Source: Candidatus Woesearchaeota archaeon (lineage in GTDB: Archaea; Nanobdellota; Nanobdellia; Woesearchaeales; B72-G16). From it: a stretch of DNA of 41,119 bases. The notes beneath the pieces are model-generated. The model did not search any database and was not told the origin of the DNA. It saw only the letters and a program-made list of their open reading frames with translations. The DNA lies in assembly GCA_003650545.1 (NCBI GenBank), contig QMQO01000008.1, positions 1 to 41,119 of the forward strand, in the 5' to 3' direction. A program made the position numbers and the translations under genes. This document shows positions 12,227-21,056 of this stretch, one piece after another (positions within the stretch are counted from its first letter, which is position 1; each line of letters begins with the position of its first letter).

Positions 12227-13894
12227 CTAAACTTTCTTGACCATATAAGGTCCCTGTTTTTTATACTTTTGTTTGCGATAATATTCCCGCACACCAACAC
12301 CAGAAATAATGACAATCTTATCCTTATCATGCAGCTTTGCAATTTTCTCTGCTAGCTTTAACAACCTCTTACCAAGACCACGGTGTTGAATATAGGCTTT
12401 CTTTCCAAGAGCAGCAGGTTCACCGTAAACATGTAACTCTCGTATTAATGCTGTTCCTTTAGTTATCTCTTTTCTTAACTGAACTGATGGGAAACGCATC
12501 CTGCAAAAGCCAAGCAAAGATTCGCCACTTATAGCTTCAATAAAAAATTCTCTACCATGGCTAGCTTCATATTCTATAGTATTATAGGTTATCTTTCCTA
12601 ATGTCTTTAAAGTTCTGCCAACCTCTCTACATCTGATGCAACTACATTTAATATTGCGAAGCTTCATTAACGAATGAATGTACTGACGGAGATTCGTCTT
12701 ATTAACACCTGCTACAATTTTATAACTTGGGATATCACGCTGCACTCGCATGATTCTGCAATATTTAGGAACAAATTTTTTGAAGTCTGCAATTAAAGAA
12801 GCAGCTTGTTTTGTTGTTAATGGTTTAAATTTGCCTTTCTTGTAAAGCTGATATAACTTTGTACCTTTTATTACTATACACGGATAAATTTTTAGCATAT
12901 CTGGACGATAGTCTGAGTCAGAAAAAAGCAGTTTCATTCCAGCCAAATCATAACTTCTATTCACAAATAAGCCAGGCATGTAATGAAAATTGAGTTTAAA
13001 CCCAAGATCTTTCAAGGTTCGGATAGAGTCTATATTATCTTGTACTGTGTGACCTCGTTTAATCTTTTTTAGAACCTCGTCATAGACAGATTGTATGCCT
13101 AGTTCAATGCGGGTACAACCTAGATTCAATAAAAAATTACCGTGCTCAAGTGTTCCGTAGTCTGCACGGGTTTCAATTGTTAAGCCGACACATTTCACAA
13201 CCGATGTTTCATTTAGTTTTTGTTCTCGCTTAAGAGATTTTTTATTTTTATTTTTTTCTTTCAGAGCTTTTTTATGGATGGACGCAACCCTTTCTTCTGA
13301 ACTTACTTTTCCCGGAAGTTCAAAAAATTGCTTGAATTTTTTTATATTAATAACACCGTTTTTAAAGAAGATTCTTGAGAAATCATTCATCGCTTTAAAA
13401 CAGTTTTTTATAAATTCTTGTTGGTAATTTCTAGGAAAGCTCGGAAATGTTCCCCCCATTATTATTAACTCAATTTTCTCAGGTAAGTGTCCTGTGACAA
13501 TGTATTGCTCCAATCTATTAAAGATTTGCAAGTAAGGATCAAATTTATTTCTTAAAGCACGCATTGTTGCTGGTTCATAACCAGTGTAAGATTTTGGGAT
13601 CCCTTTTTTAGTATAGCTAGGGCACATTATGCAGCTACCATGGGGACACTCGTATGGGGCTGACATAACTGCGATGATTGCGACTCCAGAAATTGTACGA
13701 GTTGGTTTTGTTAATAGTTGTTTTTTTAGTTTTGGTATATCTTTTTCAGAGGCATTAAGAAGGATCTCAACATCTGTTGGAGGATATTTCAGATTATATT
13801 TTTTACAAAGTTTTAACTTTAGTCTGTTGATTTTGTCTTTGCTGAGTTTTTTTGATTTTATTTCTTCTATCAGTTCATTGTAATAGGATTGCAT
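12227..13894 (-). CDS. elp3: Elp3-type tRNA uridine(34) acetyltransferase (radical SAM + GNAT)
   Basis: Radical SAM cysteines CPHGSCIMCPSY; LIIMGGTFPSFP; GLTIETRADYG; C-terminal GNAT with HRGLGKRLLKLAE. Confidence 0.93.
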   Translation of the reverse strand: MQSYYNELIEEIKSKKLSKDKINRLKLKLCKKYNLKYPPTDVEILLNASEKDIPKLKKQLLTKPTRTISGVAIIAVMSAPYECPHGSCIMCPSYTKKGIPKSYTGYEPATMRALRNKFDPYLQIFNRLEQYIVTGHLPEKIELIIMGGTFPSFPRNYQQEFIKNCFKAMNDFSRIFFKNGVINIKKFKQFFELPGKVSSEERVASIHKKALKEKNKNKKSLKREQKLNETSVVKCVGLTIETRADYGTLEHGNFLLNLGCTRIELGIQSVYDEVLKKIKRGHTVQDNIDSIRTLKDLGFKLNFHYMPGLFVNRSYDLAGMKLLFSDSDYRPDMLKIYPCIVIKGTKLYQLYKKGKFKPLTTKQAASLIADFKKFVPKYCRIMRVQRDIPSYKIVAGVNKTNLRQYIHSLMKLRNIKCSCIRCREVGRTLKTLGKITYNTIEYEASHGREFFIEAISGESLLGFCRMRFPSVQLRKEITKGTALIRELHVYGEPAALGKKAYIQHRGLGKRLLKLAEKIAKLHDKDKIVIISGVGVREYYRKQKYKKQGPYMVKKV

Positions 13895-20787: not shown

Positions 20788-21056
20788 GGGGCTGTAGTAT
20801 AAACCTTAATAAATAGGGTACAATCTGGCTAGAAGGAATAGGAGCGACATGCTCTCTTCCGAGTTGATGGGTGGCTCCAGGATTGGAGCGAGGAGCTACA
20901 GTCTACTGTAGCTGTGACTTTAGCTATGGTCTGTTGAAGCTTGCTTCAATGAAGAGACCACCAGATGTTAACACAACCCTGTGTTAATAGGCGTAATCTG
21001 GGTTCAAAATTGGTAAAGTGTTATTCATTTTGCTTGTGAAAGTCCCAGCAGCCCCA
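20788..21056 (+). tRNA. Multiply interrupted tRNA gene; anticodon unresolved (tRNA-Trp CCA is one reading)
   Basis: Acceptor GGGGCTG(20788-20794)/CAGCCCC(21049-21055)+A73; D stem GTAT/GTAC; ATCTGG(20823-20828)/CCAGAT(20961-20966) as anticodon stem; T stem CTGGG(20998-21002)/CCCAG(21044-21048). Removal of 21009-21042 restores T-loop TTCAAAT. Confidence 0.72.
21009..21042 (+). other. 34-nt T-loop intron (position 59/60) with hBHBh' motif
   Basis: CTGGG-[TTCA]-AA^A-...-[TGAA]-AG^T-CCCAG: 4-bp central helix TTCA:TGAA flanked by two 3-nt bulges, inner stem AAAGTG-TTATT-CATTTT. Confidence 0.75.

Follow-up and report, generated by a model that had tools for sequence, protein, structure and literature searches.

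What is the additional sequence in a tRNA gene enlarged to 269 nt, and can a standard tRNA still be made from it? The question is raised by an element on the forward strand of a contig from a Woesearchaeota archaeon (DPANN; NCBI GenBank assembly GCA_003650545.1, contig QMQO01000008.1), analyzed here over a window of 41,119 nt. The evidence presented below makes it very probable that the element (window positions 20788–21056) is a functional tRNA-Trp(CCA) gene composed of six exons and five introns, from which splicing is predicted to produce an ordinary mature tRNA (Table 1).

Gene structure and predicted mature product

A preliminary description of this locus proposed a tRNA gene enlarged by several introns, possibly four or more, and comparative evidence sets their number at five. 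The span is present as described, as are the 7-bp acceptor stem (GGGGCTG/CAGCCCC, with A73), the T stem (CTGGG/CCCAG) enclosing an enlarged T-loop, the enlarged variable region, and the named hairpins. A TATA-like sequence lies where a TATA box had been noted, and similar AT-rich boxes occur at about the same distance in several relatives. The D and anticodon stems of that description, however, are rejected by comparison with relatives. The sequences given for the D stem, GTAT/GTAC, do occur but pair the exon with the 3′ end of the D-loop intron and so make up the central helix of the intron 1 motif; once spliced, the tRNA has GTAT/GAAT as its D stem, like its relatives. The proposed anticodon stem, ATCTGG/CCAGAT, also exists in the sequence, but its pairing is coincidental, and the true stem is GGTGG/CCACC around the loop CTCCAGA, with anticodon CCA. 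Neither isotype nor exon–intron borders had been named.

Table 1. Features of the tRNA-Trp(CCA) gene and its predicted introns, in window coordinates; exon positions follow tRNA numbering
Feature	Coordinates	Strand	Basis
TATA-like box, TTTATAAA	20756..20763	+	sequence; ~28 nt upstream of gene
Exon 1, positions 1–15, GGGGCTGTAGTATAA	20788..20802	+	profile alignment
Intron 1, D-loop 15/16, 21 nt	20803..20823	+	relaxed splice motif; site comparison
Exon 2, positions 16–23, TCTGGCTAGA	20824..20833	+	profile alignment
Intron 2, 23/24, 33 nt	20834..20866	+	near-canonical motif; site comparison
Exon 3, positions 24–37, anticodon CCA within, ATGGGTGGCTCCAG	20867..20880	+	profile alignment
Intron 3, canonical site 37/38, 76 nt	20881..20956	+	conserved box C/D-type guide intron
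TGGAGC, antisense to G31–A36	20884..20889	+	alignment; N+5 rule applied by hand
GGTCT, antisense to unspliced 3′ junction AG^ACC, points at C39	20928..20932	+	covariation test
Exon 4, positions 38–45, 8 nt long, ACCACCAG	20957..20964	+	profile alignment
Intron 4, variable loop 45/46, 31 nt	20965..20995	+	relaxed motif; homologous 31-nt intron in L130
Exon 5, positions 46–59, ATCTGGGTTCAAA	20996..21008	+	profile alignment
Intron 5, T-loop 59/60, 34 nt	21009..21042	+	canonical motif; site comparison
Exon 6, positions 60–73, TCCCAGCAGCCCCA	21043..21056	+	profile alignment

Cutting five segments (21, 33, 76, 31, and 34 nt) from the 269-nt element leaves a perfect 74-nt tRNA-Trp. The spliced product recovered by a profile aligner that allowed introns anywhere, GGGGCTGTAGTATAATCTGGCTAGAATGGGTGGCTCCAGACCACCAGATCTGGGTTCAAATCCCAGCAGCCCCA, is a complete tRNA and is called tRNA-Trp (cca) by ARAGORN; relatives read side by side also give tRNA-Trp with anticodon CCA and a mature form like GGGGACGTAGTATAACCTGGCTAGAATAGGTGGCTCCAGACCACCGGATCTGGGTTCAAATCCCAGCGTCCCCA. 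Setting the border of intron 2 at 24/25 instead of 23/24 gives an identical product. The dynamic programming (DP) score against the profile was 70.5, compared with a mean of −13.1 and a maximum of 5.4 in 200 dinucleotide shuffles; when the window was excluded from training, the score was 68.3 and the same five insertions were recovered, the first moved by two nucleotides. Bacterial sequences carrying the anchor pattern alone scored at most 8. Across the 32 combinations of segment removal, ARAGORN with default settings called tRNA-Trp(cca) in one, that with all five segments out; with introns allowed, it made the same call in three further combinations retaining one or two segments and called other isotypes in two.

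Homologous genes and intron distribution

Comparison with related genes makes the strongest case for the inserts being introns. When related genomes were searched, two proved to contain clearly similar DNA, with the match strongest in the middle of the element rather than at its ends, and both loci are plainly tRNA genes. One relative's locus was then used as a query against 359 genomes of the same order, with at most two candidates per genome scored, and an exact-pattern scan of named genomes added further homologs; eight retrieved regions held no recognizable gene. Including the window gene, 128 distinct homologous tRNA-Trp genes were obtained, and the named archaeal homologs are nearly all from Woesearchaeota, other DPANN, or “Nanoarchaeota” assemblies.

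The number of introns per gene is 0 in two genes, 1 in 68, 2 in 38, 3 in 14, and 4 in five, with 5 found in the window gene alone. These counts follow the automatic parse, which is wrong in the D arm for L025 and L041 (L041 was counted by hand as having three introns; L025 was kept as parsed), and they include as an intron, with some uncertainty, a 12-nt T-loop segment in L104 and L154. That segment (12–13 nt, GAAACAAAGCGA, at 56/57, with a similar sequence in L173) may be a very short intron. At the other extreme, L172 has a 100-nt T-loop intron at 59/60, about three times the usual size there.

Introns recur at shared sites: D loop 15/16, near 22–25, anticodon 37/38, variable loop 45/46, 53/54, and T-loop 59/60. 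Each of the five sites in the window gene is filled in some relatives and empty in others; the D-loop 15/16 site is filled in about 35 of the 128 genes, and some 10 relatives carry an intron no more than a few nucleotides from 23/24. L130 shares four of the five sites, including a homologous 31-nt variable-loop intron. The tRNA-Trp genes L266 and L271 have no introns, and L225, L227, and L228 have the D-loop intron alone; given these intronless and D-loop-only genes, the introns are gained and lost independently.

These comparisons bear on whether the element might be a tRNA-Trp pseudogene in decay, with insertions built up over time, while the real tRNA-Trp lies in an unassembled part of the genome. 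The tRNA set of the window's genome, sampled via RF00005 and a T-arm pattern, includes no other tRNA-Trp. As the assembly is fragmented (133 contigs) and 85% complete, a second, simpler tRNA-Trp could be absent from it; the boxes of the guide intron described below are also degenerate (AGGA and TGTGA, vs. ATGA and CGATGA in relatives). Against decay, the exons keep every stem and the conserved loop nucleotides and give a mature product of the form usual in the family, the differences from relatives within stems are paired changes, and the insertions lie at sites that relatives use for introns and carry splice motifs. A pseudogene is very unlikely on these grounds, and the functional five-intron gene is the reading retained here.

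Splice motifs and the splicing endonuclease

Scored with the remaining introns removed, each of the five predicted introns carries a strict or relaxed bulge–helix–bulge motif. Intron 5 is canonical, with the T stem as outer helix (4/4), central helix TTCA/TGAA (4/4), bulges AA^A and AG^T, and inner helix 3/4, and intron 2 is near-canonical (outer 4/4, central 3/4, inner 4/4). In intron 3 the outer and inner helices are present and the central helix is 3/4. Both flanking helices of the strict hBHBh′ form, the outer (exon–exon) and the inner, are thus present in introns 2, 3, and 5. Introns 1 and 4 have no outer helix and are relaxed: intron 1 has a 4/4 central helix (GTAT/GTAC), bulges AA^A and AA^T, and a 3/4 inner helix, and intron 4 has a 3/4 central helix and a 4/4 inner helix (reaching ~10 bp). 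Across relatives, a 4/4 central helix is found in 97% of D-loop introns (6% when shuffled), 87% of introns at 53/54 (4% shuffled), and 67% at 59/60 (5% shuffled).

The relaxed form of introns 1 and 4 and the single central mismatch in each of introns 2, 3, and 4 count against a full set of five. It could be argued that one segment, most likely the 33-nt segment preceding the anticodon stem or the 31-nt segment of the variable loop, is retained as an expanded loop, as the motifs of introns 2 and 4 both contain a central-helix mismatch and class II tRNAs with long variable arms exist. Yet these segments are absent at the same positions in most related tRNA-Trp genes, so that mature tRNA-Trp normally lacks them; their retention would either break the stack of D arm and anticodon stem or produce a class II tRNA-Trp; and intron 4, with its inner helix of ~10 bp and its 3-nt bulges, is consistent with a splice motif. 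A gene with fewer introns therefore appears slightly less probable still than a pseudogene. That the element is a standalone structured noncoding RNA, tRNA-like at its ends by chance, is scarcely credible: its predicted strand fold is very stable (−102 kcal/mol vs. −74.9 in shuffles, z = −5.3) and its conservation strongest mid-element, but the relatives' homologs are ordinary tRNA-Trp genes that share its ends and anticodon arm, and the standalone RNA family over the full span that the preliminary description had raised as a competing identity finds no Rfam match. Querying Rfam with the unspliced window at the gathering threshold returned no match to any covariance model, those for group I introns, RNase P, and SRP RNA included, and a permissive threshold returned chance-level fragments only (E 0.7–6.5); these identities are therefore rejected.

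For the five-intron gene, the motifs also suggest an order of events. Nucleotides 40–43 are claimed both by the central helix of intron 4 and by the outer helix of intron 3 (the anticodon stem); because these overlapping demands do not allow the two motifs to coexist, splicing of the pre-tRNA is probably sequential. The transcript would be cut at each bulge–helix–bulge, one cut after another, most likely by the single detectable EndA of the genome, and the six exons would then be joined by tRNA ligase.

This EndA presents a difficulty for the five-intron reading. Relaxed introns are reported to be removed efficiently only by (αβ)2 and ε2 enzymes, by virtue of their loops, while α4-type EndA is described as limited to strict motifs (PMC6379350; see also PMC12397907). 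The window's genome has one EndA gene (PF01974), still one at E 10, and exactly one PF01974 gene was found in each of 31 genomes. The encoded protein aligns end to end with the α4 enzyme of M. jannaschii and does not have the insertion seen in S. tokodaii and A. pernix. None of 19 aligned EndA sequences has a CSL insertion, and a search of the window's genome with PF01974 at E 10 recovered neither a second subunit gene nor a chain of three fused units bearing a CSL or ASL-type loop. A loop-less, α4-type EndA beside relaxed introns challenges the current model of specificity: either the rule has an exception in Woesearchaeota, or a divergent subunit was missed, as a structural subunit may be too divergent for PF01974. 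We tentatively propose, with slightly less than even confidence, that an α4-like EndA without a CSL or ASL loop removes all five introns, two of them relaxed, in a set order, and that the restriction to (αβ)2 and ε2 enzymes fails in Woesearchaeota. In the region L054:97-3022 (contig C6 of the assembly), the EndA gene is flanked on one side by a Trp/Tyr-tRNA synthetase family gene and on the other by an RNase Z-like gene; the synthetase, which has a KMSAS motif, is probably TrpRS.

The anticodon-loop intron and comparison with known systems

Judged from its sequence and position, the 37/38 intron is the ancient box C/D-type guide intron of archaeal tRNA-Trp, with degenerate boxes in the window. 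The fifth nucleotide before the D′-like ATGA of most relatives (AGGA in the window) faces C34 by way of TGGAGC, and GGTCT pairs with the last two bases of the intron and the first three of the next exon. A matching 5-mer occurs in 50 of 63 long introns, whereas shuffling gives 17.9 on average and 29 at most; among introns with unusual junctions, 9 of 14 have it. Read by eye, the boxes run in the order D′-C′-D-C, with ATGA, CGATGA, and, in some cases, TGATGA in relatives and AGGA, TGTGA, TTGA, and TGAAGA in the window; the weak boxes make guide activity of this copy uncertain. The intron would be a box C/D guide for 2′-O-methylation of positions 34 and 39, or the descendant of a working one.

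In Haloferax volcanii, the box C/D intron at 37/38 of pre-tRNA-Trp guides methylation of C34 and U39 (PMC4090602). The window intron shares its site in tRNA-Trp(CCA) and has antisense elements fitting 34 and 39, but its box order is a circular permutation of C-D′-C′-D, its boxes are degenerate, and its guide for 39 pairs with the unspliced 3′ junction.

Other tRNA-like genes in the same assembly also appear to contain introns. L077 (contig C14, minus strand, T-arm 12381–12391), a tRNA-Leu-like gene of 210 nt, has two or more insertions; the insert in its anticodon region (TTGAG-TGATGAG-hairpin-CAATGA) has the layout of the tRNA-Trp intron with the antisense part altered for a CAA anticodon, which suggests a second self-guiding tRNA intron, for C34. 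L072, L020, and L015 have 159, 156, and 97 nt, respectively, between matching acceptor strands; overall, tRNA introns seem to be plentiful in this genome.

Archaeal tRNA genes are reported to contain up to three introns (PMC8450103; PMC3218864). Several introns per tRNA, at non-anticodon positions and with bulge–helix–bulge motifs, are also seen in Thermoproteales (Pyrobaculum, Thermofilum), but these reach at most three per gene, while the window gene has five in a DPANN host with a single-gene EndA without the crenarchaeal loop. Most tRNA genes of the Asgard Atabeyarchaeia and Freyarchaeia are described as having introns, many of them noncanonical, with multiple introns in over half (PMC11291895), a multi-intron condition resembling that of the window gene; some of these Asgard genes may have four or five. 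The red alga Cyanidioschyzon merolae has introns in the D, anticodon, and T arms of one tRNA (PMC9602550), similarly spread over different arms, but is a eukaryote with three introns rather than five. No description of four-intron archaeal tRNA genes or of Woesearchaeota tRNA introns was found in the openly licensed literature, and as far as that searchable literature shows, five introns is two above the maximum for one archaeal tRNA gene.

Archaeal tRNA genes carrying four or more introns thus appear undescribed in the openly licensed literature; here there are six exons, one of just 8 nt. Gene finders can overlook such genes, as ARAGORN reported no tRNA in the unspliced window. Homologs whose intron number ranges from 0 to 5 over a small set of sites provide a series for studying the gain and loss of tRNA introns, and the presence of a loop-less, apparently single-subunit EndA beside relaxed introns makes the link between enzyme type and intron type testable.
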